Made by a program: the position numbers and the translations under genes. Positions 30,752 through 53,165 of a stretch of DNA of 53,250 nucleotides are shown in pieces (position 1 is the stretch's first letter; each line of letters begins with the position of its first letter). The notes below the pieces were generated by a model, which saw only the letters and a program-made list of their open reading frames with translations, was not told the DNA's origin and ran no database searches. Origin of the DNA: Deltaproteobacteria bacterium (GTDB lineage: Bacteria; Desulfobacterota; Desulfomonilia; UBA1062). The DNA is taken from assembly GCA_015486075.1 (NCBI GenBank), contig WFSG01000001.1, forward strand, positions 1-53,250, given 5' to 3'.

Positions 30752-31003
30752 GTGGGGTATAGGGTGCAAGGTATAAGGTATAGGTCTCAGGTATCGGGTT
30801 CCAGGTGCCGGGTAAAAGAAAAAAGCACAGAGACACAAAGTTTAAGGACATGGTGCAAGGTATAAGGTACAAGGCAAGGCACAGAGTAAAACAAGTGTAA
30901 GGTGTAAGGTATAGGGTCGATAGGTAAAAGCATGGGTGGTAACAGTCTTGAAGACAGAAGTGCTGTGTATCATGTAAACAACGTGGCCGCTGAGGGCTGA
31001 AAG
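30752..31003 (+). repeat. GGTNNNR heptad element, copy 4 (long form)
   Basis: Read 5' to 3' after the lipase stop, 7-nt units GGTATAG, GGTGCAA, GGTATAA and GGTATA lead into the conserved central block at 30783-30841 (units GGTCTCA, GGTATCG, GGTTCCA, GGTGCCG, GGTAAAA, then a purine run and CACAGAGACACAAAG). More heptads follow (to 30916). A distal module at 30930-31003 contains AACAGTCTTGAAGACAGA and GAGGGCTGAAAGCC. The same order is seen, inverted, in copies 5, 6 and 8. The 334-nt gap between lipase and HAD genes contains nothing else recognisable. Confidence 0.9.
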
Positions 31004-31078
31004 CCAACTAAAACATAGGTTGGTTTGAGAAAATAGAAGCTCACCAAGACTGAGGTTTAGAATAAAAAAGGATAATAC

Positions 31079-31876
31079 ATGAAGCCCATATCCAAGATCT
31101 CAATCGAAGAATGCAACGCCATAGAAGTGATATTCTTTGATATAGATGATACCTTTACACTGGACGGCAAGATTCCAAAGGAATCGTACGGGGCGCTGTG
31201 GGCATTGAAAGATGCAGGGTTGGCCCTGATACCTGTTACCGGCAGACCCGCCGGGTGGTGTGACCATATTGCCCGCATGTGGCCAGTAGATGGTGTCATC
31301 GGCGAGAACGGGGCCTTTTATTTCTACTACGACGATGAAGAAAGAAGGCTCAGGCATAGGTATTTTTTTCCACCTGACCAGGTGGAAATGGAAAGGGCAG
31401 AGTTAAATAGCATAAGGGAGGAGATCTTGAAACGCGTGCCAGGTGCAGGCCTTGCATCTGACCAGGCATACCGCATCTTTGACCTGGCGATAGACTTTGC
31501 CGAGGACGTAGGTCCCTTACCTTCAAGTGCAGTAGACAAGATCTGCAAGATATTTTCGGATCACGGGGCGAGATACAAGGTGAGCTCCATCCATGTGAAC
31601 GGCTGGTTCGGAGACTATGACAAGCTCACCATGGTTAACTTCTTCATGCAGGAAAGGCTGGGCATTGAGCCCGAAGAAGCTGTTAGAACGGCCTTGTTCG
31701 TGGGCGATTCCCCGAACGACGAGCCTATGTTCTGTTACTTCGGGCTCAGCGTGGGTGTTGCCAATGTAACAAGGTTCAAGGATACATTGAAATACCTTCC
31801 GACGTACGTCACTAAGGCAAGGGGTGGTATAGGATTTGCGGAGATGTCAAGGATTATACTTAAAAAGAGAAAATAA
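31079..31876 (+). CDS. HAD-superfamily phosphatase (Cof/MPGP-like, type IIB)
   Basis: A 265-residue HAD hydrolase. Motif I is F-D-I-D-D-T with nucleophile Asp21 and Asp23, motif II the T in PVTGRPAGW, a conserved Lys (KLTMVNF) provides motif III, and motif IV is FVGDSPNDEPMF. A cap domain of type C2 lies between motifs II and III. Proteins of this group remove phosphate from sugar phosphates such as mannosyl-3-phosphoglycerate or sucrose/trehalose phosphates; the exact substrate cannot be read. It precedes the flavoprotein-DUF362-kinase operon by 24 nt and may belong to it. Confidence 0.85.
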   Translation: MKPISKISIEECNAIEVIFFDIDDTFTLDGKIPKESYGALWALKDAGLALIPVTGRPAGWCDHIARMWPVDGVIGENGAFYFYYDDEERRLRHRYFFPPDQVEMERAELNSIREEILKRVPGAGLASDQAYRIFDLAIDFAEDVGPLPSSAVDKICKIFSDHGARYKVSSIHVNGWFGDYDKLTMVNFFMQERLGIEPEEAVRTALFVGDSPNDEPMFCYFGLSVGVANVTRFKDTLKYLPTYVTKARGGIGFAEMSRIILKKRK

Positions 31877-31900
31877 TAAGCTTAGGGAAAGGAGCAATAT

Positions 31901-33604
31901 ATGTCGGTAAAGGGCTTTAGCAGGAAATCCTGGCGATCCATACTCAAATGGGGAGACCCAAACTATTTCAATCCACCAAAGAAACGGCTCATAAACTACA
32001 TGAAAGAACACCTGGGTGTAAGAGAAGAGGACATCTCAAGGCCCCACCTACCAGGCCTTGAAGAGGTCAAGGTAGATAAGAAACCAAGTCTAGATGAGAA
32101 GGCCCTCAAGGACATTGAGAACATTGTAGGCAAAGAGAACGTGGACACATCGGACTACGAGAGGGTAAGGCACAGCATGGGTTATACCTACATTGACATT
32201 GTGAAGTTGAGGCTAGAGGATGTGAAGAACCTTGTGGATTGCGTGGTATACCCGAGGGACGAGGACGATGTGGTGAAGATCCTCAATTTCTGTGACAAGA
32301 ACAAGATCCCCATCATAGCGTTCGGAGGAAGGTCTGGTGTTTCAAGGGGACTTGAGCCCACTAAGGGCGGGCTAAGCCTTGACCTCACAAGGCACATGAA
32401 CAAGGTGACGAGCGTGAACGAGCTCAACATGAGCGCAACAGTACAGCCAGGTATATTTGGACCCGACTACGAGGCATACCTGAATAACTACAGGACGCCA
32501 TATTCAACCACTGGATATACCTGCGGGCACTTCCCGCAGTCCTTCGAGTATTCAACTGTGGGTGGATGGGTTGTAACAAGGGGTGCAGGCAGCCTGTCTA
32601 CGGGATACGGCAAGATAGAGGACATGGTGCTGGGCCTTAGATTTGCAACACCGAAAGGCATGATAGTAATAAGGGACTACCCCAGGGCAGCAACCGGGCC
32701 TGACTTGAGACACGTTGTTATAGGGAGCGAGGGGACACTCGGAGTACTTACCGAGGTCACGCTCAAGATATGGCGCTTCAGACCATCTAATAGGGTCATG
32801 TTTTCGTTCCTGTTCAAGGACTGGGAAAACACGGTCGCTTGCATGAGGGAGATAATGCAGGGCGAGTTTGGTGTGCCCCATATGTTCCGCATATCCGATG
32901 CAGAGGAAACTTCCATTGCATTCATGGTAGAAGGTATTACAGGCACGCCCATTGACAAGATACTCGAACTAAGGGGTTTCGTTGACGGCAAGAGGTGCAT
33001 CATGATAGCGGCGACAGAGGGCGACAAGGACAGGGGCAGACTCATAAAGAAAAAAGCAAGGGCCCTGGCAAAGAAACACGGAGCAATGAGCCTGGGCTCA
33101 ATTGCAGTAAAGGGATGGTACAAGCACCGCTATGCAGACCCGTACCTTAGGGAGGATCTCATGGACATGAAGGTGATGACAGACACCCTTGAGACCTCCT
33201 GCACGTGGGATAACATAATGCAGGTATGGTCTGGCATGCGTGAGGCAGTGAAGGCAAGGCCCAATTCAATATGCATGGTACATGCCTCGCATGCGTACGA
33301 AAACGGTGCAAACCTCTACGTCATATTCATATCAAGGATAAAGCCGGGCGACGAGGTAGATGATTACCTTAACTACCAGAGCGCAATAATTGAGGCCATA
33401 ATAAAAAACGGTGGAAGCCTTTCTCATCATCACGGCGTTGGAAAGATGCTGGCCCCTTGGTACGAAGACTATATGGGTAAGACCTCGATGGGGCTACTGA
33501 GGGCAATAAAGACACATTTGGATCCAAACAATATAATGAACCCGGGTGGCACGCTTGCCCTTGATTTCAAAGGCAAGAAGGGGAGACCACTTCCGGCTAA
33601 GTAA
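31901..33604 (+). CDS. FAD-linked oxidase, alkyldihydroxyacetonephosphate-synthase-like
   Basis: A 567-residue flavoprotein of the VAO/PCMH fold. The FAD-binding domain includes IAFGGRSGVSRG, GYTCGHFP and TGPDLRHVVIGSEGTLGVLT. The C-terminal half ends with HHH (509-511, SHHHGVGK) and the LDPNNIMNPGG end motif. The early WG motif, the triple His and the overall length match alkyl-DHAP synthases, which exchange the acyl chain of acyl-DHAP for a fatty alcohol to make ether lipids; related bacterial proteins may instead oxidise glycerol-like or hydroxy-acid substrates. AAGGAG precedes the ATG. It is followed after 11 nt by DUF362 and then an FGGY kinase. Confidence 0.8.
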   Translation: MSVKGFSRKSWRSILKWGDPNYFNPPKKRLINYMKEHLGVREEDISRPHLPGLEEVKVDKKPSLDEKALKDIENIVGKENVDTSDYERVRHSMGYTYIDIVKLRLEDVKNLVDCVVYPRDEDDVVKILNFCDKNKIPIIAFGGRSGVSRGLEPTKGGLSLDLTRHMNKVTSVNELNMSATVQPGIFGPDYEAYLNNYRTPYSTTGYTCGHFPQSFEYSTVGGWVVTRGAGSLSTGYGKIEDMVLGLRFATPKGMIVIRDYPRAATGPDLRHVVIGSEGTLGVLTEVTLKIWRFRPSNRVMFSFLFKDWENTVACMREIMQGEFGVPHMFRISDAEETSIAFMVEGITGTPIDKILELRGFVDGKRCIMIAATEGDKDRGRLIKKKARALAKKHGAMSLGSIAVKGWYKHRYADPYLREDLMDMKVMTDTLETSCTWDNIMQVWSGMREAVKARPNSICMVHASHAYENGANLYVIFISRIKPGDEVDDYLNYQSAIIEAIIKNGGSLSHHHGVGKMLAPWYEDYMGKTSMGLLRAIKTHLDPNNIMNPGGTLALDFKGKKGRPLPAK

Positions 33605-33615
33605 GGAGAATCTGG

Positions 33616-34989
33616 ATGGCAAGCAAAAAGATAGTGTCCATCGTAAAGGGACAAAGGCCGTTTACTGCCTTGAAGATTGAAGAGATGGTCAGGAAGGCGG
33701 TTGAACTCGTAGGTGGTCTTTCTGAAAAGGTAAAGTCTGGCGATCACGTTGTCATAAAGCCAAACCTATTTGCCCCCTACCCACCCCCGGTATCCGTTGA
33801 CAGGAAGGTCATAGCATCAGTGGTAAGGTTGGCAAAAGAGCTCGGTGCAGCAAAGGTTACGGTTATAGAGGGTGTAAGCGTGGGTACACTAATGAAACGG
33901 ATAAACCTTTACTCAAAGTCCCAGGACATGGCAAGGGGCCTCACCAGCATCGAAGTTATGAAGCTACTGGGCGTGAAGAAAGCGGTTGAAGATGCAGGGG
34001 GAGAGGTAATTGGCCTTGAGGATGCAGAAAAGCTGCACGTAGACATAAAGGGTGGGAAGGCCCTGCACAGGGTTAATTACCCAAGGCTAGTACTTGATGC
34101 CGATTGCTTCATAAATATACCAGCAATGAAGACACACACCATGACCATGGTCACACTTGCCATAAAGAACCTACAGGGTCTGTTAGATGAAAAGGACAGG
34201 TACTTCTCGCACAGGGACGACCTTGATCAACACATGGTGGACATCAACAAGATAAGGCTGCCTGATTTTGTAGTCCTTGACGGGCTAATAGGCATGGAAG
34301 GTATGGGTGCAGGGGAGACAGGAAGTCCGGTCGAGATGGGTATCATAATGGCTGCAGAAGACCCGGTCTCAATCGATAGCATTGCCTCCATGTGCATGGG
34401 CATAGATAATCCACTCATAGTGGGTACAACCAGGATAGCTGCACACGATGGCCTCGGCATTGCAAATCCCTTTGAGATAGAGGTTAGGGGTAACGCGGTT
34501 GAAGATGTAAAGAGAAAATTCCTTTTACCCTTCAATTATACCCAGCCCATTGATACGCTAGTGACAGGTGTCTACCCGAACATTGACCTTTATATAGGTG
34601 GGGCATGCCCCACATGCTGGCTCATGACTGCGCTGGTAGAGGGAACGCTTGGGTCAATACCAAAGAGGTTTACCCTCATAGTAGGGGTCGACCCAAAGGT
34701 TCCACCAGGTTTCTCACCCGATCTGGAGCACACTTTTTTCCTGGGAGATTGTGCATTGAGCACTTCCGGGGACCTCAAGGAGATAAGGAACGCGATGTTG
34801 CTAGCCGGGATAGATAACTTCCTAGGAGGTTGTCCACCGTACGAGCCTGCTCTGGTAAAGCTTGAGAGTATACTTATGGAAAAGGGATATATAAATGAGG
34901 GAGACCTTATAAACAAGGCCAGGGAACAGCAGAAAAAATTCTTTGATTATTATAAAGGCCAGGACGAGACATGGGAACCTGACCTTTAA
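33616..34989 (+). CDS. DUF362-domain protein
   Basis: A 457-residue soluble protein of the DUF362 family: VVIKPNLFAPYPPP near residue 47, PAMKTHTMTMVTLAIKNLQG near 173, and VLDGLIGMEGMGAGETG near 220. Conserved cysteines appear in GACPTCW, GDCALST and LGGCPPYEP, possibly for metal or Fe-S binding, but the 2[4Fe-4S] domain found in some members is absent. The biochemical role of the family is not settled. Gene spacing of 11 nt on either side shows it is co-translated with the flavoprotein and the FGGY kinase. Confidence 0.8.
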   Translation: MASKKIVSIVKGQRPFTALKIEEMVRKAVELVGGLSEKVKSGDHVVIKPNLFAPYPPPVSVDRKVIASVVRLAKELGAAKVTVIEGVSVGTLMKRINLYSKSQDMARGLTSIEVMKLLGVKKAVEDAGGEVIGLEDAEKLHVDIKGGKALHRVNYPRLVLDADCFINIPAMKTHTMTMVTLAIKNLQGLLDEKDRYFSHRDDLDQHMVDINKIRLPDFVVLDGLIGMEGMGAGETGSPVEMGIIMAAEDPVSIDSIASMCMGIDNPLIVGTTRIAAHDGLGIANPFEIEVRGNAVEDVKRKFLLPFNYTQPIDTLVTGVYPNIDLYIGGACPTCWLMTALVEGTLGSIPKRFTLIVGVDPKVPPGFSPDLEHTFFLGDCALSTSGDLKEIRNAMLLAGIDNFLGGCPPYEPALVKLESILMEKGYINEGDLINKAREQQKKFFDYYKGQDETWEPDL

Positions 34990-35000
34990 GGAGGTATGCC

Positions 35001-36560
35001 ATGGGTGAAAAGAATTACATTATAGCCATTGACTCGGGTACGCAGAGTGTAAGGGCAATACTGTTCGACAGGGATGGCAACGAGCTGGCAAGTGCCCAGG
35101 CACCCCACGAACCTTACTTCTCGCTAAAGCCTGGCTGGTCTGAGCAGAGACCCGAGGACTATTGGGAGAAACTCCTAAGGGTCACGAATGAGCTCATGCA
35201 AAAGGTAGAAGTAAACAAGGACGAGATAGCAGGCATAGGCATAACCACGCAGAGAGGGACATTAATACCCCTTGACGCAGAAGGTACTCCCCTGAGACCA
35301 GCCATCATATGGCTTGACCAGCGGACCACTGCCGAGCCACCCGAGCTTGGCACGGGGGCAAAGCTACTCTTTGGTATAGCAGGACTGTCCGACGCCATAA
35401 GGTATGTCCAGAAGAACTCAAAGTTCGTCTGGATAAGGGCAAACGAGCCAGAGGTCTACGGTAAAACATACAAGTTCGCCCAGGTATCCGGCTGGTTTGT
35501 GAAAAAGCTCACTGGCGAATTCAAGGACTCGGTCGGCATGGTTACTGGTCTCTGGCCCCTTGATTACAAGAAGCTCAAGTGGCACTCGTTAAAGCCAGCT
35601 TACACGGCCTTTGGCATCAGCAAAGAACAGTTATTCGACCTGTATACACCTGACACCATCCTGGGTTACGTCACCAAAGAGGCTTCAACTGAGACGGGGC
35701 TTCCAGAGGGTCTTCCCGTGGTTGTAGGTGGAGGGGACAAGCAGTCAGAACTATTGGGGGCAGGCGCAATAGAGCCTGATATCGGGGTGATAAGTTTTGG
35801 TACGGCAACTGCCATGGAGGTAATAACGAGAAAATACATAGCAGACAAGAAACTCAGGTTTTTCACGTGGCCTGCTGCTATTACAAATGCGTGGGACATC
35901 GAGATGTTTATATACAGGGGCTTCTGGATGGTAACATGGTTCAAGCAGGAGTTCGGCCAGCGGGAAGCCATGGAGGCTGAGAAAAGAGGCGTGGCACCTG
36001 AGGTAGTCTTTGACGAGATAATAAAGGATATACCACCGGGTTCCATGGGCCTCATGCTTCAGCCTTACTGGACACCCATGGTCTACGAAAAATACGCAAA
36101 GGGTTCCATCATAGGCTTCGGTGATGTCCACACTAGAGCTCACGTGTACAGGGCCATACTCGAGGGCCTTGGGTACGAGCTTAGAAGACTCTACGAATTC
36201 GTACACGAGAGAACAGGCAATGAACTGAAAGAAATAAGGGTCGGAGGCGGTGGATCAAGAAGCGACGTTGCCGTTCAGATAGCGGCCGACATCTTTAACC
36301 TTCCAGCGTATAGGCTTGCCACACACGAGATATGTGCCCTGGGTGCAGCAATCGATGCCGCTGTTGCAGTTGGCATGTATACAAGCTTCGAAGAGGCGGT
36401 CTCGCACATGGTAAGGAAAGGAAAGGCCTTTGAACCTGACCCCAGAAACCATGTTATATACGAGGAACTCTACCAGGGCGTGTACAAAAAGACATACAAG
36501 GCCCTGGAGCCCATGTACGAGAAGATAGCAAAGGTAACAGGCTATCCCCCTGATGATTAA
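35001..36560 (+). CDS. FGGY-family carbohydrate kinase
   Basis: A 519-residue kinase with the sugar-kinase actin-like fold. Phosphate-1 motif is AIDSGTQSVRAILFD at the start; GIGITTQRGTLIPLD and WLDQRTT match the substrate loop; GVISFGTATAMEV and the C-terminal RVGGGGSRSDVAVQIAAD and CALGAAIDAAVAVG motifs give the adenosine pocket. It resembles glycerol/xylulose kinases, and the partner genes favour a glycerol-like or alkyl-glycerol substrate; this is inference. AAGGAGG precedes the ATG. It ends the operon. Confidence 0.87.
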   Translation: MGEKNYIIAIDSGTQSVRAILFDRDGNELASAQAPHEPYFSLKPGWSEQRPEDYWEKLLRVTNELMQKVEVNKDEIAGIGITTQRGTLIPLDAEGTPLRPAIIWLDQRTTAEPPELGTGAKLLFGIAGLSDAIRYVQKNSKFVWIRANEPEVYGKTYKFAQVSGWFVKKLTGEFKDSVGMVTGLWPLDYKKLKWHSLKPAYTAFGISKEQLFDLYTPDTILGYVTKEASTETGLPEGLPVVVGGGDKQSELLGAGAIEPDIGVISFGTATAMEVITRKYIADKKLRFFTWPAAITNAWDIEMFIYRGFWMVTWFKQEFGQREAMEAEKRGVAPEVVFDEIIKDIPPGSMGLMLQPYWTPMVYEKYAKGSIIGFGDVHTRAHVYRAILEGLGYELRRLYEFVHERTGNELKEIRVGGGGSRSDVAVQIAADIFNLPAYRLATHEICALGAAIDAAVAVGMYTSFEEAVSHMVRKGKAFEPDPRNHVIYEELYQGVYKKTYKALEPMYEKIAKVTGYPPDD

Positions 36561-36636
36561 AACAAACCGCCAGTTGCCAGGTATAAAACCGTAGGTTGGG
36601 ACGAATTCTAACCTTGGCAAAAATCCGTCTTTGCTT

Positions 36637-36920
36637 GAAAGAGCTATAAGCCAGCCCTCAGCCTCCAGATTATTTTACCTGATTGCTGAAACCTCTGTCT
36701 TCAAAACAGTTACCCATACCCTTACCTATCATACCCTACATCTTGCACCTTATACCTTGTACCTTACACCTGTTTTACTTTGTGCCTCTGTGCTTTTTTC
36801 TTTTCTTTTACCCGGCACCTGGAACCCGATACCTGAGACCTATATCTCTTACCTTGCACCTTATACCTGTCTTACTTCGTCCTTTTGTGCCTTTGTGCCT
36901 TGGCTTCTGCCTTGCACCTA
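36637..36920 (-). repeat. GGTNNNR heptad element, copy 5 (long form)
   Basis: On the minus strand it starts at the fmdE-like stop codon: TAG overlaps GGTGCAA. GGCACAAAG-type units follow, then GGTATAA, GGTGCAA and the central block (36779-36840). A second heptad run GGTACAA, GGTATAA, GGTGCAA comes next, and the distal module with GTTTTGAAGACAGAG lies at about 36695-36712. The element fills the gap between the convergent kinase and fmdE-like genes (36561-36917); nothing else is recognisable there. Confidence 0.9.
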
Positions 36921-37571
36921 GTCATTATAGCTGAAGCAATCAGGGCATACTTTTTTCCCGTCTTCCAGCCTTGCATAGTTCTCTGCAACAGCTTCCCCAC
37001 ATTTTTCGCATACCTCGAGTTTAAAACACGCACCCTTGTTTTCGACCTTGTAATCAAAAGGACCCTCTATCTCTAGAAAGTCTTCCAACTTGAGCCCGAA
37101 TGGCCTCTTGAAGGCAGCCTCTGAAGCATCCAGCGGTACATCGGTGGGCTTTATACCCTTGATCCTATATTCTGATATAAAAGGCGCTTCATATACCTTT
37201 TTTATAAACTCGGCCTTTATCTTAACCTTCACGGCCTTTCCCTTTAGTTTGTCCACTACCATGAATGACCACTTGCCCTTTGGTTCCTTTTTCATGATTC
37301 CCTTGCCAAAGGTACAGCCTGTTGCAAACTGCACCCCGTCTGAGAAGCACCCTGCAGCGTGGCGTTCCCCTGCATATATGACAACGAACTTGTCCATGTC
37401 CCTCTCGCGCTCAGACCCGAGTGCCTTTAAAGCTGCAAGGCCTGCCCTGAATCCAACAGGCATTGCACCGCACAGGTGCCCGTGGATATTAAGGCCAGAA
37501 TAGAGTAATTCCCTTTCTTCGTCCGTAAGACCCTCAATAGAATTGGCTATTTCCTTATGTCTTGTAAACAT
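36918..37571 (-). CDS. FmdE-like protein with C-terminal zinc ribbon
   Basis: A 217-residue protein whose N-terminal two thirds match the FmdE family (INIHGHLCGAMPVGFRAGLAA, YAGERHAAGCFSDGVQFATGCTFGKG). FmdE was named as a molybdenum formylmethanofuran dehydrogenase subunit, but many bacterial members stand alone and may serve molybdo- or tungsto-enzyme metabolism. The C-terminal CEKC...CPDC is a typical zinc ribbon. The ATG at 37571 has AGGAGGTG upstream; the GTG 9 nt earlier is part of that site. No formylmethanofuran dehydrogenase genes are nearby. It follows a TSUP transporter gene on the same strand. Confidence 0.85.
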   Translation of the reverse strand: MFTRHKEIANSIEGLTDEERELLYSGLNIHGHLCGAMPVGFRAGLAALKALGSERERDMDKFVVIYAGERHAAGCFSDGVQFATGCTFGKGIMKKEPKGKWSFMVVDKLKGKAVKVKIKAEFIKKVYEAPFISEYRIKGIKPTDVPLDASEAAFKRPFGLKLEDFLEIEGPFDYKVENKGACFKLEVCEKCGEAVAENYARLEDGKKVCPDCFSYND

Positions 37572-37619
37572 ATATAACACCTCCTGTATCCATTTATCTA
37601 CGATGGTTTAGAATGTGTC

Positions 37620-38426
37620 TCAAATACCATGCCTCGAGTAACATGCATTGATTACCATCAATACAGCTGCCAAAAAGGTCGTATAGGCAAAAAGGCCTTT
37701 AAGATACTTGGGCTTTACCTTCATCGTGTACCTCCCTCCAAGCATGCCACCTGCTATGGCGATGGTTGCAAGGGGAACGGCCCAGATGGGATCGAAATCC
37801 CCTTTGAGGGCATGGCCCAGAAATCCCATAAATGCGGTTGAGCCGATGAGCACGGATGCCGTACCCACAGCTATGTGCATGGAAACACCACATGCCAGTA
37901 CCATAAGGGGCACCAGGAAGGATCCGCCGGATACGCCCATCATACCGGCACCAAAGCCTATGAACAGTACGATAACTGGTGCAATCCACAGGTTTACAAC
38001 GTAGGTGCCCTGTGATGACCTGATTTGCCAGTAGCCAAATCTTTTGGCTTCAATATCCTTCTTGGGCTCTGGTACAGGCTTGAGCATGAGAAAACCTGCC
38101 AGTACAAGCATGCATGCAAAGGTAATTTTCAGGGTGAAACCCGTGAACAGGTGAGATGCATAACCGCCTAAAAAGGCTGCGACAGCGGTGAGAGGTCCTA
38201 TAAACAAAGCAAGTGGCCAGGATATAACCTTGTTCTTCTGAAAAATGAACAGGGCTGAGAACGCTGTCATGAATAGCATGAACTGGCCAGTGGTAGCTGC
38301 CTGGTGCATGGGAAGGCCTGCAAGAACCAGGATCAGTACATAAAAATTGCCCCCACCACGGCCTGCCATTGTCATGACAACGGCAATTGTAAATACAATG
38401 CCACATACAATAAAAAGTTTCAGCAT
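37620..38426 (-). CDS. TSUP-family (TauE/SafE) anion permease (1)
   Basis: A 268-residue membrane protein with about eight hydrophobic helices in two halves. The duplicated family motif is visible as MTMAGRGGGNFYVLILVLAG and GFGAGMMGVSGGSFLVPLMV. TSUP members export or import sulfite, sulfoacetate, thiosulfate or other organosulfur anions. AGGA precedes the ATG. It is divergent from the ArsR gene with a shared 91-bp promoter region, and 48 nt upstream of the fmdE-like gene. Confidence 0.88.
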   Translation of the reverse strand: MLKLFIVCGIVFTIAVVMTMAGRGGGNFYVLILVLAGLPMHQAATTGQFMLFMTAFSALFIFQKNKVISWPLALFIGPLTAVAAFLGGYASHLFTGFTLKITFACMLVLAGFLMLKPVPEPKKDIEAKRFGYWQIRSSQGTYVVNLWIAPVIVLFIGFGAGMMGVSGGSFLVPLMVLACGVSMHIAVGTASVLIGSTAFMGFLGHALKGDFDPIWAVPLATIAIAGGMLGGRYTMKVKPKYLKGLFAYTTFLAAVLMVINACYSRHGI

Positions 38427-38460
38427 ATATTTGTCCTAAGATGTTCCTAACTCAAAACAT

Positions 38461-38510
38461 TTCGGGTGTCAATTGGTATTTGACTATTTGGCCATAAAGC
38501 CATATACTAA
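38461..38510. promoter_or_regulatory. back-to-back promoters of TSUP-1 and arsR
   Basis: Plus strand: TTGACT (38480-38485), 17 nt, TATACT (38503-38508), pointing at arsR. Minus strand: TTGACA (complement of 38467-38472), 17 nt, TAGGAA, pointing at the TSUP gene. The two -35 hexamers form an inverted repeat GTCAA-N7-TTGAC at 38468-38484, a natural site for a dimeric ArsR repressor that would shut both promoters. Confidence 0.6.
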
Positions 38511-38517
38511 ACACGTT

Positions 38518-38814: not shown

Positions 38815-38886
38815 GGACCATAATGCTAGGTTATTTAGTTAAGTTAGAGTTTGTGATGCAGAAAAAGAGGTGGTATCTATAAAATA

Positions 38887-39576: not shown

Positions 39577-39590
39577 AGAAACACATGACG

Positions 39591-39606
39591 ATTGACCTAG
39601 GTCAAT
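39591..39606 (+). promoter_or_regulatory. perfect HcpR/FNR-type palindromic operator
   Basis: ATTGACCTAGGTCAAT is a perfect 16-bp palindrome with the TTGAC-N4-GTCAA architecture of Crp/Fnr-superfamily sites. Its centre is at 39598.5. A weak -10 (TGTTAT, near 39626-39631) would put it around -41.5, the class II activator position, for the TSUP-TolC-MFP-RND operon. The adjacent Crp/Fnr gene is the likely source of the ligand protein. Confidence 0.7.
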
Positions 39607-39640
39607 GCATAATCTTAATCACGACTGTTATTTGTTGATA

Positions 39641-39688: not shown

Positions 39689-39709
39689 ATAAAAAAGGAT
39701 CTTGTTGGC

Positions 39710-40459: not shown

Positions 40460-40476
40460 GCAGGTATATAAGATCA

Positions 40477-45900: not shown

Positions 45901-45987
45901 GCCATAGGGGGCCTTATCGTGGGTACCATACTAACGCTCGTATACGTGCCCATGTTTGCCTACACCGTTGACACCAAGAATACTTAA
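42925..45987 (+). CDS. RND efflux pump inner-membrane transporter (2)
   Basis: A 1020-residue RND pump. TM1 is LYSIITGLFVMGIFGLITM; the TM4 proton-relay pair is in ALGMLVDDAVVVLENI; the second half mirrors the first (GLGVILLLMALIAIYRS, LVGIMLLFGIIIKNSVLLIDF). The DD pair places it nearer to hydrophobe exporters than to metal pumps. AAGGAG precedes the ATG. It is the last gene of the TSUP-OMF-MFP-RND operon. It is only distantly like the pump at 19695-22730, so this is not a recent duplication. Confidence 0.93.
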   Translation: MFDFFYKRPYLLYSIITGLFVMGIFGLITMPKNLFPDSDRPTVVVITEVPGATPNVVASTVSKPIEQELSTISLVREVSSTNITGMSVVTAEFEYRKGLDAAAVDVNNSINKVRAKLPRYVHPSIYTSGSFTLPVDVFAMSPASKGIDLSDIRKIAESDVKPALLRDPEIGNVEVFGGYQGAITINIDPYKAKASGITLNRIINLISGINRDIPLGFAKAKDKYYSITYYGERDSVSKLRELTMAPNVKLGDIATVRWEYKKRFSAYLGNGRPAIAISVQRAPGGSVLDTSKAARKIIRGLKERYKNIRFELTDTQRIVIDTANRNMLDALRDAIIFTLIVILIFLGNIRAMTAALVSIPMVFFSTMAITWIMGGELNIVIYTAIILALGMLVDDAVVVLENIERHLSSLKQDLNTAVVQGTKEVIAPVFAGTIATISIMFPLLFVGDFPQKIFRPLVETLIIALIASYFLSITFIPSFSAYLYRKGAKKSRVEQWLESLYQRSFGRLIKPYVSILEYSAGKNAILRKTVMTLAVVLLFFLSLRGIMPVIGRDLMPPMDTGIIMAHVKFSSNETVDEVLKRIRPFTKWLHTQKEVVMSSISFGSEPGVLSLGKGSLPTEATMSINCVDRFKRKKSIWQIEDEIRHHLMQLRDTKAVDVYDFGATAISSIKAPIDVRLMAEDYNILPGVANEVARQLEKVKGLKSINTSWDKDLTEVRIDIDPNRALEYGLTPAQIAYQMPLKGYPVTLSSNLVSMQTQFVRLYFTHPYAESIDSLRLIPIQTPRGPVPLTALASIHYGLTSAKVERDNMLYSIDVNAYRARRPVSILTSDTNNVLKKVDTSGVVLSQEGDIKQLKDSFSRMIKGTGLGVILLLMALIAIYRSVRMAIVMILVLPLSMIGAAWAMLIFHKPSCMPSLVGIMLLFGIIIKNSVLLIDFYQEFRKKADPFEAAKESVRIRFRPVFMTAFGTIAGMIPIALEWAVGLERLSPLADVAIGGLIVGTILTLVYVPMFAYTVDTKNT

Positions 45988-46055
45988 GCATGCACCATAA
46001 AAGAATTAATCAGGGTAGCTAAGGATACTATAATTATATGAAAAATATCATTGGA

Positions 46056-46390
46056 TATCGGGTTTAAGGTATAAGGTAAAAGAGCTGTCAGCTTACATTA
46101 GCTCTCAGCCTTAAGGTTACTTACTCGGCACCCGATATTTCTGTCTTCAAAGTGTTACCCATGCCCTGACCTATCGACCCTATACCTTACACCTTACATT
46201 TGTTTTACTCTGTGCCTTGCCTTGTACCTTATACCTTGCACCATGTCCTTAAACTTTGTGTCTCTGCGCTTTTTTCTTTTACCCAGCACCTGGAACCCGA
46301 TACCTGAGACCTACACCTCTTACCTTACACCTTACACCTTAAACCTTGTACCTTATACCCTACACCTTTGTGCCTTACGTCTTAAGCATA
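46056..46390 (-). repeat. GGTNNNR heptad element, copy 6 (long form)
   Basis: On the minus strand, starting a few bases after the porin stop, units GGCACAAA, GGTGTAG, GGTATAA, GGTACAA, GGTTTAA and GGTGTAA lead to the central block (46255-46311). A second heptad run follows (GGTGCAA, GGTATAA, GGTACAA). The distal module contains ACACTTTGAAGACAGA near 46141-46156, and GAGAGCTAATG near 46096-46106. A short plus-strand GGTTTAA-GGTATAA run lies at the outer left end (46062-46075), so both ends carry heptads in opposite sense. It fills the gap between convergent RND and porin genes (45988-46393). Confidence 0.9.
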
Positions 46391-46393
46391 CAT

Positions 46394-47782
46394 TCACATC
46401 AACCCGGTGGAGAATTTGTATTCCCACTGTAAGAACAGCCAGTTTGCCTGCTCTGCAGATACCATTCTCTTGGTAAACTCGTCTGGCCAGAAGTGACCAA
46501 AGCCTAACTGTACCTGAGCAGTATCTGTGTAATCGAACCTGGCGACAATATCGAATTCCTTGCCCACGTCGTCCCCAGCAAGGCCTGTCTTGTCCCTGTA
46601 TGCCTTTGCGTTAAGGGACCAACCGTCTCTCTTTTCAGCGAGCCAGAACTTGTGGAATTCTGCTTTTACATACGACCTCTCGCTTGGTCTAAGCTTAAGA
46701 TTTATCTGTGCATCCTCTATGTTCTGCCAGCGGAAAAGGTTCATCCTGCCGTACATCTTGTCCCTTGCACCGAACGCGCCATCGAACCTGCCATGATCAT
46801 GGTCATAAGGGTTGGAATCACCCGAGGCATAGCTATACTCGAAGCTTATCCCCGGGGACATAATAACATTCTTTATTGTGTACCCCAAGAGCATATGGTA
46901 GGCATAGGCCTTTATATCATCATCTGCATAGTCACCGAACTGCCTTACATATGTAAAGTCCCAATCAAGACCCATTAGATCTTTCTTGTATGCCCGGAAG
47001 CCCACATACCATGAATCGAGGCTGCCATACAAACCATCTTCCCCCTTGTACCTCCTATGATTGTCCCTCTTTGTCATGAAGAAGGGCTCAAGGGCTATAC
47101 CACACATGTTTTCAGGCAGGTCTACGTGAGAATACATGCCAAGAGACTCGTAAAAATGGCGATGTTTCAAGCTGAATTCATCGGGGTTGTGTATCATGGT
47201 CCTGCCATAGTACACGTCTACGAAACCATGGTTAAACTTGTAAGAAGTCCTTATGGCATCCCAGATCCACCTCCCGGTATTACCCCACTCTCCTGGACCG
47301 AACACCCTTTTATCACCAAAGAATATCCTCTGCCTGCCGGCCTTGAGTGTCAAGGGCAGATCAAAAACCCCCTTTGTTTCTATATATGCCTTCCATATCT
47401 CCCACCTGTCCTTGTAAGGGTTGTTCTCATCGCCCAGAGTCGAATTGTAGAACGCGCTGTCTGGTATGGCCAGATCCCATGCCTCGGCATCCTGCATCCA
47501 TAGTGCAAGGTGAGTTGTATAGCTTGGCAGGTAGTCGAACCCGGCTCTGAAGCGTCCAAGCAGGAATGCATCGTCGTTTGAAGAACCCTGCGGCGGGTTA
47601 TCCCCGTAATACTTCATGTTGAAATCGTCCTGGAACTCGTATCGAAATCGCAAATCAGTACCGAACCTTAGGCTGGCATCCTTAGCATGTGCAATGCTAC
47701 AAAAAAGGATAGAGGCCAAAGATAAGATTACAACTGTTAGAGACAGCCTGAAAAAATCCCGCATTCTAAAACATATACACAT
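46394..47782 (-). CDS. outer-membrane porin, alginate-export (AlgE-like) type
   Basis: A 462-residue beta-barrel protein. From the ATG at 47782 a signal peptide (LSLTVVILSLASILF, cleavage near SIAHA) is followed by alternating aromatic strands: LRFGTDLRFRYEFQDDF, LTLKAGRQRIFFGDKRVFGPGEWGN, and a C-terminal barrel strand. The RQRIFFGDKR-GPGEWGNTGR segment is typical of the alginate-export porin family, which despite its name includes general anaerobe porins. GGGAGGG lies 4 nt before this ATG; the ATG at 47797 lies upstream of that site and lacks one. It is divergent from the ferredoxin-AOR operon. Confidence 0.83.
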   Translation of the reverse strand: MCICFRMRDFFRLSLTVVILSLASILFCSIAHAKDASLRFGTDLRFRYEFQDDFNMKYYGDNPPQGSSNDDAFLLGRFRAGFDYLPSYTTHLALWMQDAEAWDLAIPDSAFYNSTLGDENNPYKDRWEIWKAYIETKGVFDLPLTLKAGRQRIFFGDKRVFGPGEWGNTGRWIWDAIRTSYKFNHGFVDVYYGRTMIHNPDEFSLKHRHFYESLGMYSHVDLPENMCGIALEPFFMTKRDNHRRYKGEDGLYGSLDSWYVGFRAYKKDLMGLDWDFTYVRQFGDYADDDIKAYAYHMLLGYTIKNVIMSPGISFEYSYASGDSNPYDHDHGRFDGAFGARDKMYGRMNLFRWQNIEDAQINLKLRPSERSYVKAEFHKFWLAEKRDGWSLNAKAYRDKTGLAGDDVGKEFDIVARFDYTDTAQVQLGFGHFWPDEFTKRMVSAEQANWLFLQWEYKFSTGLM

Positions 47783-47842
47783 ACGGCCCTCCCACATATT
47801 AAATTAATCTCTTCAAATATAACCATAATCACTACAAGAAAC

Positions 47843-47858
47843 ATTGATGTATGTCAAC
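47843..47858. promoter_or_regulatory. candidate Crp/Fnr-family site between porin and ferredoxin-AOR operon
   Basis: ATTGATGTATGTCAAC contains TTGAT-N4-GTCAA, nine of ten bases of the FNR half-site consensus, and keeps the TTGA...TCAA frame of the HcpR-type site at 39591-39606. It lies about 140 nt before the ferredoxin ATG and 61 nt before the porin ATG. A coincidental match is possible. Confidence 0.4.
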
Positions 47859-47997
47859 ATATTATGTCTCAATAAACATACATAGCTAGGGTATGGCATC
47901 CGTCTCTGGAAAAAAGACCTTTTGATATTTAAGGAAAGTATGGTAAAATTTTTCCAGAAGTGCAACTTGTCGTGTAATTCAGTTACTAGGGGGCATT

Positions 47998-48234
47998 ATG
48001 AAGAGGTTCTTGATAGAGGTCAGGCCAGAGCTTTGCACAGGTTGTCTTAGGTGTGAGCTTGCCTGTTCCGAGGTCTATACAGGTGCGTTCAACCCATCTG
48101 CAGCAAGGATCAAGGTGCAGGTGTCAGACAATGAATGTTCCATATCCTTTACCGAGGACTGTACTTACTGTGGCATCTGCGTAGACCACTGTTTTTACGA
48201 TGCATTGAAAAAGAGACTGGAGGAGAAAGCATGA
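47998..48234 (+). CDS. 2[4Fe-4S] ferredoxin-type electron-transfer subunit
   Basis: A 78-residue protein with two cluster motifs: C13-x2-C16-x2-C19-x3-C23 and C55-x2-C58-x2-C61-x3-C65, plus an extra C47. The spacing between the motifs is longer than in clostridial ferredoxins and resembles the small iron-sulfur subunits that accompany AOR-type enzymes. AGGGGG lies 4 nt before the ATG. Its stop overlaps the AOR-family gene (ATGA), so it is most likely the dedicated electron acceptor or donor of that enzyme. Confidence 0.92.
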   Translation: MKRFLIEVRPELCTGCLRCELACSEVYTGAFNPSAARIKVQVSDNECSISFTEDCTYCGICVDHCFYDALKKRLEEKA

Positions 48235-50084
48235 AGCTCGGAGGCTTTGCAGGAAGGATCCTTATCGTTAACCTGTCTACTGGTGAGACAAGGTATGAGC
48301 CATTGGATTATGGACTTGCAGAGAAATTTCTGGGTGGACTCGGTGTTAGCCTAAAACTGTATTATGACATAGTAAAGCCGGGCGTACCCCCTCTTTCCCC
48401 GGAGAACCCTGTTGTCCTTGGCACTGGGCCACTCGTTGGTACAGACCTCCCTGCAACGTCACGCGTGTACGCAATAACCAAGCTACCCCAGAGCAAGGCG
48501 GTTGCATGGTGCGGCGGCGGCGGGATGAACTTTGGTTGCATGTTGAAAAATGCAGGCTACGATAACGTGATAATAGAGGGCAGATCTGAAAAGCCCGTCA
48601 TCCTCAAGATATTCGACGACGAGGTAGAGATCCTCGATGCAGGCGACTTCTGGGGTAAGGGTGTGAAGGATACGTGCAGCCGTCTGTGGGACACATATGG
48701 CAGGCCCACTGGCATAATAACAATAGGACAGGCAGGCGAAAACAAGGTTATATTTTCCATGGCATACATAGAGGGCGCTGCCACCATGGGTAGGGGTGGC
48801 CTTGGCGCTGTCTTGGGCTCAAAAAACCTTAAGGCCATCATAGTAAAGGGATCAAAGGGCATACAGGTGGCGGACAGAAAAAGGTATAGGTCTGTTAGGG
48901 ATAGGTTACTTAAGACCATGCGCGAGTACCCTTACCTAAAGGAGTGGCAAGAGCTAGGGCTAATGAAATCCTTGCCTTTCTTTCCCATGGACCTTTACAA
49001 AAAGGTAAAGAAAAGGAGGCTAGCATGCGTGTCATGTCCCATAGGAGACAAGGACGTGATCGAGATAAAGGACGGTCCTTTGAAGGGCACCGTCATACGC
49101 TCCACTTCAATGATAAACCTTATAACACCCATGGTATATGGTCTCAAAGACTACAGGGAGGCGATAAAATGCGTTTCCATACTTGATGACTTTGGGATGG
49201 ACATGTTTGAATTCTTCGGTGTGTTGAGCTTCACAAAGGACCTCATAGAACAGGGTGTAATCGCGCCAGAACAGGCTCAGGACAAGATCAAGGTCGACTC
49301 CCTTGAATCCGTTGAGATATGGGCAAAAAAGGTGTGTTTCAGACAAGGTTTGGGCGATCTCCTTGCAGGTGGTTTTAACGCTATATTGGATACATTCGGT
49401 GACATGGCAAGGCCCCATGCACCCTACATCATAAGGGGCATGCTGCCCTACACTGGGCCACGGGGGCCCTTACCCTGGGAACTATTCGGCACAATGGAGT
49501 TAGGCCAATCACTCGACCCCAGGGGTCCACACGTAGGCGCATCTGGCTCTCCTACCTACTTTGCAAGAAGACCACTAGACCAGTTCCCGCGTCACCTAAG
49601 GAGGATGGGCGCACCCGAAGAAGCCATAGAAAGGATCTTACCCTCGCTGGGTTCACCAGAAGACGAGGAGTCCCTCAAGGTAGGTAGGCTCCTTACGTAC
49701 TCGCATAACTGGTTCAGCGCCCTTGGTTCCCTGGGTATATGTGCAAGGGCGCAGATAAACCGGTTCTACAACGCAGAGACTTGCTCCGAGGCCTACTCGT
49801 CGGTTACAGGTATAGAGACCACTAAAGAAGAGCTAATGATGAAGGCGGAGAGGGTCTGGAACCTCTTGAGAATAGCCAATGTAAGGGAAGGCTTTGCCAG
49901 GAAAGACGATACCTTACCTGACAAGTGGTTCGAAGCACCTCCATTCAAAAACTACGTGACCATGAAACCCATAACTAGACAGGATGCCGAACGCATGCTA
50001 GAAGACTACTACGATGAAAGGGGCTGGGACAAAAGAACTGGTATCCCAACAAAAGAAAAACTAGCGAAGCTCGGCCTGGAATAG
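48231..50084 (+). CDS. AOR-family tungsten/molybdenum oxidoreductase with altered Fe-S ligand set
   Basis: A 617-residue AOR-family protein: GFAGRILIVNLSTGETRYEP, GTGPLVGTDLPATSR and GRGGLGAVLGSKNLKAI are the pterin-domain landmarks. The [4Fe-4S] binding motif reads C266-x2-C269-x3-D273 (CVSCPIGD), so the third cysteine is Asp; the fourth is present as C504 (GSLGIC). The region where AOR has a glycine-rich loop reads AWCGGGGMNFGCMLK, with two extra cysteines. It forms an operon with the ferredoxin just upstream and could be an aldehyde oxidoreductase or a relative of BamB-type enzymes. The product end DYYDERGWD-KRTGIP is typical of the family. The two AORs in the window are clearly different subfamilies. 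Confidence 0.9.
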   Translation: MKLGGFAGRILIVNLSTGETRYEPLDYGLAEKFLGGLGVSLKLYYDIVKPGVPPLSPENPVVLGTGPLVGTDLPATSRVYAITKLPQSKAVAWCGGGGMNFGCMLKNAGYDNVIIEGRSEKPVILKIFDDEVEILDAGDFWGKGVKDTCSRLWDTYGRPTGIITIGQAGENKVIFSMAYIEGAATMGRGGLGAVLGSKNLKAIIVKGSKGIQVADRKRYRSVRDRLLKTMREYPYLKEWQELGLMKSLPFFPMDLYKKVKKRRLACVSCPIGDKDVIEIKDGPLKGTVIRSTSMINLITPMVYGLKDYREAIKCVSILDDFGMDMFEFFGVLSFTKDLIEQGVIAPEQAQDKIKVDSLESVEIWAKKVCFRQGLGDLLAGGFNAILDTFGDMARPHAPYIIRGMLPYTGPRGPLPWELFGTMELGQSLDPRGPHVGASGSPTYFARRPLDQFPRHLRRMGAPEEAIERILPSLGSPEDEESLKVGRLLTYSHNWFSALGSLGICARAQINRFYNAETCSEAYSSVTGIETTKEELMMKAERVWNLLRIANVREGFARKDDTLPDKWFEAPPFKNYVTMKPITRQDAERMLEDYYDERGWDKRTGIPTKEKLAKLGLE

Positions 50085-50169
50085 AGACACACTGTTTGCT
50101 TTCGTACATAGGCCATTCCATTACCCGGCAAAATAATGTATACCACTGTGAAAAAGCCAGGAGACAAGA

Positions 50170-50889
50170 ATGAGTACAAGGCCTAAGGTGTCCGTTATAA
50201 TACCCGTAAAGGACGAGGAAGATAACATCTTCCCACTGATAGACGAGATAACAGATGTCATGGGGTCAAACCCTAAAGAGCTGGAGATACTCTTTGTCGA
50301 CGATGGTTCCGGGGATTCCACACTGGAACGCATCAAGCAGAGGGCAGAGAACCTACCAACAGTACACTGGATATCCTTTGATAGAAATCACGGGCAGACA
50401 GCTGCCTTTGATGCAGGCCTGAGGGAAGCAAGGGGTGAGATACTCGTGATGATGGATGGCGACCTACAGAACGATCCGGGTGATATACCAAGCCTGTTAG
50501 AGGGTCTCGACAGCGCGGACATGGTTGGTGGTTATCGTGTCAACAGAAAAGACAACATCATCCGGCTTATATCTAGCAAGATAGCAAATACCATACGCAA
50601 CTGGGCAACCCACGAGGACATAATAGACGTGGGTTGCTCGCTCAGGGCCATGAAAAGGGAGTGCATAGAAAACGTGAAACTTTTCGAAGGCATGCACCGA
50701 TTTTTTCCAACGCTTGTAAAGCTGGAGGGTTTTCGTACAGCGCAGATACCTGTTAACCACCGACCCCGCAAGTATGGCAAGGCCAAGTACGGAATTTCTA
50801 ACCGCATGTTTAAGGCACTAGTGGACCTGTTCGCGGTTGTATGGATGCAGCATCGCTACATTCATTACGTCATAAGGGAAAGGGGCTAA
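50170..50889 (+). CDS. GT2-family glycosyltransferase (polyprenyl-phosphate sugar type)
   Basis: A 239-residue GT-A fold enzyme. It starts with VSVIIPVKDEEDNI and contains VDDGSGD (nucleotide-binding Asp) and MDGDLQNDP (metal-binding DxD-type), then RPRKYGKAKYGISNRM near the C-terminus. It resembles dolichyl- and undecaprenyl-phosphate mannose/aminoarabinose synthases but lacks the two C-terminal membrane helices of the longer forms. AGGAG precedes the ATG. It is followed after 1 nt by the Lab_N gene, so it should supply a lipid-linked sugar to the glycosyltransferase downstream. Confidence 0.88.
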   Translation: MSTRPKVSVIIPVKDEEDNIFPLIDEITDVMGSNPKELEILFVDDGSGDSTLERIKQRAENLPTVHWISFDRNHGQTAAFDAGLREARGEILVMMDGDLQNDPGDIPSLLEGLDSADMVGGYRVNRKDNIIRLISSKIANTIRNWATHEDIIDVGCSLRAMKRECIENVKLFEGMHRFFPTLVKLEGFRTAQIPVNHRPRKYGKAKYGISNRMFKALVDLFAVVWMQHRYIHYVIRERG

Positions 50890-50890
50890 T

Positions 50891-51166
50891 ATGAGCAAGT
50901 TCTGGCTGGTATTTGGTTTCGTTGGACAGGCTGTCTTCAGTGCAAGGTTCCTGGTGCAGTGGCTAGCATCAGAAAAGGCAAAGAAAAGTGTTATACCCGT
51001 TGCATTCTGGTGGCTTAGCTTATGCGGAGCAGCAATACTACTCACCTATGCCATTTACCGAAAAGACCCTGTCTTTATCTTGGGCCAGTCAACGGGCTTT
51101 CTCATATACTCGAGAAACCTATACTTCATATTCAGGGACAAGACTAGAGAGAGACTGGAGGCGTAA
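50891..51166 (+). CDS. small Lab_N-domain membrane protein
   Basis: A 91-residue protein with about three membrane segments, matching the lipid-A-disaccharide-synthase N-terminal (Lab_N) domain: GFVGQAVFSARFLVQWLASE, then VPVAFWWLS-type helix and GQSTGFLIYSRNLYFI. Stand-alone versions commonly sit between a GT2 and a membrane glycosyltransferase. As I recall, the domain is grouped with PQ-loop/SemiSWEET-like proteins, so a role in moving or handling the lipid-linked sugar is possible but unproven. AAGGGG precedes the ATG. Its stop codon is followed at once by a heptad element. Confidence 0.85.
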   Translation: MSKFWLVFGFVGQAVFSARFLVQWLASEKAKKSVIPVAFWWLSLCGAAILLTYAIYRKDPVFILGQSTGFLIYSRNLYFIFRDKTRERLEA

Positions 51167-51168
51167 AA

Positions 51169-51300
51169 ATAAGGTATAAGGTTTAAGGTGCAAAGTAAGA
51201 GATATAGGTCTCAGGTATCGGGTTCCAGGTGCCGGGTAAAAAAAAGAAAAAAGCACAGAGATACAAAGTAAAACAGGTGTAAGGTACAGGGTATAAGGCT
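51169..51300 (+). repeat. GGTNNNR heptad element, copy 7
   Basis: Plus-strand units GGTATAA, GGTTTAA, GGTGCAA begin 8 nt after the Lab_N stop. The central block follows at 51207-51269 (GGTCTCA, GGTATCG, GGTTCCA, GGTGCCG, GGTAAAA, purine run, CACAGAGATACAAAG), then GGTGTAA, GGTACAG, GGTATAA. The distal module is absent or degenerate (51300-51350). It separates the Lab_N and ArnT-like genes, which would otherwise form one operon. Confidence 0.88.
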
Positions 51301-51372
51301 AAATAAGGACATTACTTGCTATTAGCCTTGCATTCCTTATCCTGTATGCCTTAAGTTGCTATAAAGATCTGC

Positions 51373-52833
51373 GTGAACTTGAAAACGTTGAAAGAGAAAT
51401 TGGGTAATACACCTGACTGGCTCAGGATTTTAATCCTGGGACTCGTGCTAATGCTCCCCACGCTGGGAATAAGGCCACTGTGGCTACCTGACGAAGGTAG
51501 GTATGCAGAGGTCGCAAGGGAGATGATTGTAACTGGAGACTGGATAACCCCGCACCTGAACTTCTCTCCGCATTTTACAAAGCCACCGCTTACCTATTGG
51601 CTTACAGCGATATCGCTTATGGCCTTTGGGAAAAACGCATTTGCAGCACGGCTTATAAGTGCTCTTAGCCTTATAGGAACAGCAATTGTCACATATCTAC
51701 TTGCAATAGAGCTTGGCAGAAAGAGGTCTGCCCTTGTTGCCGGCATTATACTTCTTACGTCCCTCATGCCATTTTTTGCTGGGAACCTAATCACCACCGA
51801 CATGCTACTTACGTTCTGGGAGACCCTGGGTATATACCTCATGTGGAGGTGGTACAACCAAGGAGTGGATGCAGGCAAAATATACCTGTACGGTTCATAC
51901 GCTGCCCTGGGCCTTGCATTCCTCACAAAGGGTCCTGTAGGAGTGCTGGTGCCCCTTATGGCATTTGCTGGCTACTGCATATACGTAAAGGACTGGTCTA
52001 TACTAAAACGGAGCCTTACAAGGTGGTCCATACTTGTATTCTCACTCATTGCATTCCCATGGTTCATAGCTATTGTCACAATTCACAAAGGTCTCCTGGG
52101 GTATTTGCTAGGCAACGAGGTGGTGGGACGTGCATTTACCAATATTCACCATAGGAACAATACATTCTTGATATACCCTGTTGTTCTAACCCTAGGATTT
52201 CTTCCATGGGCTGTATTCCTGCCCTCTGCCTTGAAAAGGGCATTTCCACTGGCAAGGTTAAAGGATCGTACAATAAGGCCTGACAATGCATTCCTGATGA
52301 GCTGGATCCTTTTACCCCTTGTCTTCTTCTGCATTGTAAAGTCGAGGCTAGCGCTTTATGTCCTTGACCTGTTCGTTCCTATGGCCATAATCACCGCAGG
52401 CCACCTAGTGCCAGAAGATAAAAGCACCCCTGTCAGCGGAAAGATCTCATTAAAGAAACCAGGCATCTATAGGCTTGCATCACTAATGGTAGTTGCCCTG
52501 CTTTGCCTCAATGTCTTTGCAACACACTTTCCGTCTTCACAGAACCTCTACCCCGTAGTGAGGGCAATCAGGTCAAAGGCCGATGGCCAAGACTACAGGG
52601 TTTATTCAAACCGGAGGCATATATACACGATCGACTTCTATCTGGACAAGAAAGTAAATTATGTTATCGATTTCACGCCCTTTCTAAAAGATAAGAAACC
52701 ATGCTTTATAGTGCTTAACATGCACTCCAGGAATGCTGACCCACCGCGAGTCATCTCAGAGAACTCCGAGTTCGTAACTAACTACTTTGAATACTGGGTC
52801 TTTTACAGGCCAGGGACAGGGGGCACTAGCTAG
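51373..52833 (+). CDS. ArnT/PMT-like integral membrane glycosyltransferase
   Basis: A 486-residue protein with about ten to eleven membrane helices and a C-terminal soluble tail. The first periplasmic loop carries LPDEGRYAEVAREM, the acidic motif of GT-C enzymes of the ArnT/PMT type (donor lipid-linked sugar). HFTKPPLTYWL and LTKGPVGVLVPL are further family motifs. It likely transfers a sugar from undecaprenyl phosphate to lipid A or another envelope acceptor, completing the GT2-Lab_N pathway. The start appears to be GTG at 51373; no clear ribosome-binding site precedes it. Confidence 0.87.
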   Translation: MNLKTLKEKLGNTPDWLRILILGLVLMLPTLGIRPLWLPDEGRYAEVAREMIVTGDWITPHLNFSPHFTKPPLTYWLTAISLMAFGKNAFAARLISALSLIGTAIVTYLLAIELGRKRSALVAGIILLTSLMPFFAGNLITTDMLLTFWETLGIYLMWRWYNQGVDAGKIYLYGSYAALGLAFLTKGPVGVLVPLMAFAGYCIYVKDWSILKRSLTRWSILVFSLIAFPWFIAIVTIHKGLLGYLLGNEVVGRAFTNIHHRNNTFLIYPVVLTLGFLPWAVFLPSALKRAFPLARLKDRTIRPDNAFLMSWILLPLVFFCIVKSRLALYVLDLFVPMAIITAGHLVPEDKSTPVSGKISLKKPGIYRLASLMVVALLCLNVFATHFPSSQNLYPVVRAIRSKADGQDYRVYSNRRHIYTIDFYLDKKVNYVIDFTPFLKDKKPCFIVLNMHSRNADPPRVISENSEFVTNYFEYWVFYRPGTGGTS

Positions 52834-52845
52834 GTAAAGAAACTA

Positions 52846-53165
52846 GCTGTCAGCTCTCAGCCTTCAGGTTATTTTACCTGATATCTGAAACCTGATACCT
52901 CTGTCTTCAAGACTGTTACCCATACCCTTACCTATCATACCCTACACCTTAAACCTTACATTTGTTTTACCTTGCGCCTCTGTGCCTTGCCTTGTACCTT
53001 ACACCTTATACCTTGCAACATGTCCTTAAACTTTGTGTCTCTGTGCTTTTTTCTTTTACCCGGCACCTGGGACCCGACACCTGAGACCCATATCTCTTAC
53101 CTTGAACCCTGTACCTTGCACCTTAAACCTTATACCCTTATACCTTACGCCTTGAGCCTTACGCC
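52846..53165 (-). repeat. GGTNNNR heptad element, copy 8 (long form)
   Basis: The most complete copy. On the minus strand from right: GGCGTAA, GGCTCAA, GGCGTAA, GGTATAA, GGTTTAA, GGTGCAA, GGTACAG; then the central block (53031-53088); then GGTATAA, GGTGTAA, GGTACAA; the GGCACAGAGGCGCAAGG segment; more heptads; and the distal module with ACAGTCTTGAAGACAGAG near 52900-52917 and GAGAGCTGACAGC near 52847-52859. It fills most of 52834-53200; no gene is seen. Confidence 0.9.

Follow-up and report, generated by a model that had tools for sequence, protein, structure and literature searches.

A repeated core block within a longer, modular repeat of the G-rich heptad-array family in a Deltaproteobacteria bacterium

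Five near-identical blocks of ordered heptads lie among variable heptad repeats in the window, i.e., the whole stretch of DNA analyzed here (53,250 nt of contig WFSG01000001.1 from a Deltaproteobacteria bacterium). They raise the question of whether this core is a unit in its own right, recognized or transcribed as such while the surrounding arrays grow and shrink, as a preliminary description proposed, or a piece of something larger. In order to answer it, the copies were compared with each other, with the other heptad arrays of the genome, with a genome of the same genus, and with similar repeats in other organisms.

The core block and the repeat around it

The five blocks are present where the preliminary description had placed them, two on the forward and three on the reverse strand. 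The heptads GGTCTCA, GGTATCG, GGTTCCA, GGTGCCG, and GGTAAAA are found without change in copies 1, 2, and 4, with the variant GGTGCTG in copy 3 and with GGTGTCG and GGTCCCA in copy 5; as described, they are followed by a purine run of variable length and then by a CACAGAG(A/G)(C/T)ACAAAG-type sequence. In the sense direction, a typical array of this genome consists of a stop codon, an A-block (GGTNYAR)n, an A-rich linker (AAAAGATACA or AAAGAAGACAA), and a C-block (GGTNYCR)n, after which come a GGTAAA-purine run and CACARAG words, often with a second round; GCTGA words end many arrays. The following features were delineated in the window:

14795-14954, no strand assigned: two short heptad arrays with four GGT units apiece, oppositely oriented, within the gap 14677-14967
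30745-30960, forward strand: copy 1, a long element (A-block, core, second and third A-blocks, long linker) that starts right after the stop of the ORF 29662-30744 (forward)
30783-30841, forward strand: core block of copy 1
36652-36917, reverse strand: copy 2, behind the stop of the ORF 36918-37580 (reverse), in a convergent gap
36779-36840, reverse strand: core block of copy 2
46100-46393, reverse strand: copy 3, behind the stop of the ORF 46394-47797 (reverse), in a convergent gap
46255-46311, reverse strand: core block of copy 3, GGTGCTG variant
51167-51298, forward strand: copy 4, directly after the stop of the ORF ending at 51166
51207-51269, forward strand: core block of copy 4
52830-53200, reverse strand: copy 5, close to the contig end, with the opposing ORF 51373-52833 (forward)
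53031-53088, reverse strand: core block of copy 5, GGTGTCG and GGTCCCA variants
53204-53246, reverse strand: intrinsic-terminator-like hairpin (GATCCCC..GGGGATC and a T run), read from the sequence, before copy 5 in the sense direction

The block recurs far more often than chance would allow: the 2.3 Mb genome contains five exact matches of the 21-mer GGTATCGGGTTCCAGGTGCCG and none of its reversed control. BLAST with copy 5 as query returned 65 matches in the genome, and a sixth full copy was located on another contig (C12:20014-20269). At C21:57, the four core heptads are near-identical and have a different continuation. The exact 27-nt core had no match in the named genomes searched, a set that may not include the genome itself. 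The start of another contig (C22:180-262) is 99% identical over 83 nt to the last array of the window (53118-53200) and continues into the same terminator-like hairpin, which is why C22 may be the adjacent contig; several contigs terminate within arrays.

On the stop-codon side of the core (hereafter left), the heptads vary in number and order among copies, in agreement with the preliminary description. That description had also held the core to be conserved far better than the heptads around it, a comparison that covered the block and its nearest heptads only, and had proposed an alignment of all copies and a comparison of rates between core and flank as checks. In the six-copy alignment, the differences per compared site amounted to 0.034 in the 58-nt core, 0.289 in the 38 nt to the left, and 0.177 in the 78 nt to the right. 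The contrast with the left side is strong, the core being significantly less variable (column permutation, 0/20,000), whereas the contrast with the right side does not hold throughout: when copies 1, 3, and 6 are considered, the core (4/174 differences, 0.023) is no better conserved than the right 78 nt, several heptads included (4/234, 0.017), and the claim is not confirmed for them.

Two versions of the right-hand side exist, one in copies 2 and 4 and another in copies 1, 3, 5, and 6, the latter with approximately 46 additional nt between the CACARAG words, so the value of 0.177 is partly due to misalignment. Further right, the joint TAAAACARRTGTAAGGT is common to all six copies (0.067 differences per site), and the long linker GATAGGT..GGGTAA..AAGACA is common to five of the six. 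Since conservation continues rightward, the block is part of a longer repeat of approximately 230-300 bp; the conserved unit exceeds the block, and its edges are mosaic. A somewhat stronger constraint may still act on the core, as conservation to the right weakens once copies 2, 4, and 5 are included. Taken by itself, the core is probably nothing special and is of little importance.

The array family in this genome and in a same-genus genome

Runs of at least three GGT at 7-nt spacing were searched in 315 kb of the genome, a sample picked to contain arrays, the densities of which therefore differ from genome averages; 148 were found vs. 9 in the reversed control, and they merge into 71 arrays, nearly all of them intergenic. 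Among the contigs examined, array matches were concentrated on short contigs and contig ends. The sampled genome holds 55 C-blocks of at least three units, seven of the core-type version and 48 with other unit numbers (3-13) and heptad orders. As the preliminary description held, the arrays gain and lose 7-nt units.

The order of words is nonrandom even after removing all copies but one: a CT word comes first in 11 cases vs. 4.5 in shuffles (p = 0.001), and GCCG comes last in 13 vs. 7 expected (p = 0.009). This residual bias points to a common descent of the arrays. At positions 4-5 of GGTNYCR, CC was never found (0 vs. 11.5 expected) and TT was rare (6 vs. 16.5 expected). Among 395 genomes of the phylum, a list from which the same-genus genome is absent, the grammar pattern AGATACAGGTNNCRGGTNNCRGGT was detected in the genome itself only.

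Some individual arrays stand out. Whereas the arrays elsewhere are degenerate, C35:135055-135145 is a perfect run of 13 GGTGCCA units and seems to have expanded very recently. Two arrays on contig C4 (1013-1305 and 4141-4333) lie behind genes with an identical last 24 nt (CTCATCTCAGGGCACGGTGGATAA), suggestive of a duplication that included both the gene end and the array. Contigs classed as viral (IMG/VR) also carry heptad arrays, with several word types.

A genome of the same genus (G001; ~80% DNA identity and the same gene order) was used to follow three of the sites. At the copy 4 site it carries an array with the same order of modules (A-block, C-block, CACAAAG, AAGACA, A-block), the C-block of which reads GGCGCCG GGCGCCA GACATCA GGCACCA GGCGCCA, i.e., is built of GGCNYCR words. 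The copy 2 site is reduced to ~103 bp with a hairpin (CCAGGCACCAG..CTGGTGCCTGG). At the copy 3 site (G001:C10:2594-5219, L320), ~2.6 kb of other sequence is present, and its terminal array keeps the long linker motif and is devoid of the core. The G001 stretches that were read contain none of three core pieces searched for. Judging from these sequences, the copy 4 site was probably occupied before the two species split; as the core of copy 4 matches that of five other sites in its own genome and differs from its orthologue, copying between resident arrays is the simplest account, although copy 4 could alternatively have been inserted independently at a favored site. The module order kept in two species and the biased word order could reflect selection.

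Position, polarity, and folding of the arrays

Simple length or hexamer rules, rather than a gene finder, were used for ORF calling, and the start positions of the ORFs are unreliable. In same-direction gaps of the genome, the array nearest the upstream stop is in sense orientation in 20/22 cases (p = 1e−4). Where a gap contains two arrays (six cases), a sense array is always followed by an inverted one. Counted per array (same-direction gaps, arrays of at least five units), the bias of 18 sense to 7 antisense (p = 0.04) is weaker, since each pair contributes an antisense second array. First units lie mostly 6-35 nt past the stop, and the distance to the sense stop is at most 27 nt in 15/24.

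For other genomes, at least 120 stretches matching AAGGTNYA x5 were considered, the organism labels of which include Desulfobacterales, Bacteroidetes, Planctomycetota, Acidobacteria, and Proteobacteria. Cultured organisms are among them, e.g., Terrimonas ferruginea, Psychromonas, and Salinimicrobium. Among the matches listed, arrays in convergent gaps are nearer the sense gene's stop by 21:2 (21/23, p = 7e−5), with a median distance of 15 nt to the sense stop vs. 127 nt to the opposing one. The corresponding ratio was 6:5 for RGCTGAN, the comparison family taken from viral contigs (other comparison families there offered too few intergenic cases). Same-direction gaps among the matches listed lean the same way, though not significantly (28:17, p = 0.14). 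To check for an artefact of polarity, the arrays within called ORFs, left out of the count, were looked at individually; at most about three of them could hide the end of an opposing gene and reverse the convergent count. A role of A-blocks as backup stops was rejected: stops in three frames were found in 13/23 arrays vs. 46/236 controls, but the first two units are not enriched in stop words (p = 0.47).

The sense strand has a purine fraction of 0.67-0.71, with G at 0.28-0.32 and C at 0.10-0.14, hence an antisense RNA would be C-rich and G-poor. Predicted RNA folding of single arrays is not clearly beyond that of ordinary intergenic DNA (window copies, z from −0.8 to −2.5; control mean, −1.2), with a few single arrays deviating from the control mean. 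Two-array co-directional gaps have strong z values in 4/6, and only about −2 at C16:20605 and C1:14677. Sense and inverted arrays at C16:40544-40938, C21:5814-6290, C31:1852-2302, and C40:8837-9339 have predicted RNA hairpins with z from −5.6 to −9.8.

Known heptad repeats and competing explanations

The closest known repeats are GGGAATC of Xanthomonas and GGGGA(C/T)T of Nostoc, which prefer the coding strand just behind stops, have no known role, and, at a given site, vary in number and sequence among closely related species (Rehm et al. 2015, PMC4692102). The arrays described here share with them this preference in placement, the 7-base period, G-richness, dispersed intergenic position nearer the 5′ neighboring ORF, and inverted pairs, but have tracts of two instead of three or four G and several word types in recurring order. 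Repeats of the former type have G-tracts of at least three, able to form G-quadruplexes, and a preference for four units (PMC4692102); quadruplex-type tracts were not found in the arrays here, the units being GGT, which gives GGG only after a unit whose last base is G. Cyanobacterial STRRs (cited in PMC2670836) resemble the arrays in their 7-bp units, variable copy number, and occasional position near gene 3′ ends; STRRs form hairpins in inverted arrangements, and here four of the six inverted pairs are predicted to fold strongly. Degenerate 7-bp tandem units in variable number are indeed what we found, yet STRRs have other words, and most of our single arrays lack a distinct hairpin.

Other systems are more distant. 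The degenerate heptads of the Nostoc tRNA-Leu intron lie inside the intron, unlike the arrays here (PMC3488679). Geobacter metallireducens has 49 copies of elements with four GGGACCG heptads, predicted to be regulatory (PMC2700814), which are likewise G-rich, dispersed, and multicopy, but are also found within genes and have a fixed number of four units and another word, GGGACCG not being the unit here. The TAACTGA repeats of Beggiatoaceae are exact units mostly just upstream of start codons (MacGregor 2015, PMC4679880); they too are dispersed intergenic heptad direct repeats and occur in unrelated phyla, but the units here are degenerate, with a different word and placement. We judge the arrays a variant of a known, unexplained kind of G-rich heptad repeat. 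In a limited search of the open-access literature, no description was found of ordered multi-word modules, of the change of words between two species at a shared site, or of the stop-codon polarity of AAGGTNYA across phyla, for which earlier reports may exist elsewhere.

We consider it likely that the core is part of a recently copied version belonging to a dispersed family of modular, G-rich heptad arrays. The likeness of the core in six places would have arisen when a tract containing it was copied between pre-existing arrays by gene conversion or template switching, a route suggested by the mosaic edges and by the array that the same-genus genome has at the orthologous site. Alternatively, the copies could have been pasted independently at preferred sites. 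Copying of the arrays by a reverse transcriptase was set aside, as no RVT_1 reverse transcriptase was found in the genome. The 7-nt units would be gained and lost most likely through slippage and recombination between repeats. A purine-rich sense transcript just past the end of translation would favor RNA:DNA hybrids, which may drive repeat growth without benefit. Such hybrid-driven growth is, in our view, the likeliest of the accounts of what the arrays do, with a mild effect on transcription beyond the gene end being possible; the mechanism of placement is much less certain than the statement of a copied family.

The reading of the arrays as a pure mutational product, in which functionless G-rich repeats accumulate in sense orientation just past stops through slippage in the RNA:DNA hybrids formed once the ribosomes are off the transcript, is compatible with a copied family and is the favored mechanism for placement, although as a full explanation we hold it only tentatively. 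It would account for the placement and strand of the arrays, the purine-rich sense strand, and the many word versions. Furthermore, many bacterial genomes have an excess of sequences with a heptad period, for which polymerase slippage has been proposed (cited in PMC4692102). Heptad repeats have no accepted role. The mutational reading fits less well with the module order conserved between species, with second arrays that are antisense near the next gene's start, and with the restricted words at positions 4-5, as random slippage products would have no obvious reason to avoid CC and TT there.

Also compatible with the observations, but unlikely, is a one-way barrier, through which the G- and purine-rich sense RNA would pass, while C-rich antisense or read-through RNA would bind Rho and end before the gene, with inverted pairs acting as hairpin terminators. 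The C-rich antisense RNA, the full Rho gene of the genome (696 bits), the anchoring of arrays at the sense gene's stop, and the mostly strong folding of inverted pairs (two at about −2) are in its favor. However, a terminator-like hairpin already precedes copy 5, and neither the 7-nt spacing nor the fixed words follow from a C-rich strand. Rho is not known from most cyanobacteria, so the barrier would extend poorly to Nostoc. Nostoc arrays are nevertheless placed alike (PMC4692102).

We regard as very unlikely the proposal of the preliminary description that selection maintains the core as a binding site or small RNA while the arrays around it drift. The core does have the lowest substitution rate of the compared segments across all six copies, and the order with CTC-ATC first and GCCG last recurs in other arrays. 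Nevertheless, recognition or transcription of the core as a unit is made less credible by the equal conservation of the right side in copies 1, 3, and 6, by the absence of the exact core from most arrays of the genome (48/55 C-blocks are of other types) and from the same-genus arrays read, including the core-less array of G001, and by single arrays having no clear RNA fold and the window no Rfam match (0 at the gathering score). A MITE- or REP-like non-autonomous element moved by a transposase is highly improbable: near-identical dispersed copies of 230-300 bp and a short inverted arm (GTCTT..AAGAC) at one end would suit it, but the six-copy alignment shows neither sharp ends common to all copies nor an obvious terminal inverted repeat or target duplication, the sense/stop bias is strong, a related array already occupies the copy 4 site in the same genus, and the genome has no RVT_1.

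What reaches beyond this genome is the polarity of the arrays. The sense orientation directly past the stop in unrelated phyla, which RGCTGAN does not share, narrows the candidates to processes linked to transcription or to the end of translation, and can be tested with existing RNA-seq data. The change of words between two species at a shared site likewise makes the concerted evolution of arrays testable. A wider reading, which we consider quite unlikely, is that degenerate G-rich heptad arrays are a widespread polar 3′-end element, stop-anchored and in sense orientation in many phyla, in which the order of modules persists from one species to another while words shift together (GGT to GGC), so that rhythm and order would be read rather than a fixed sequence.
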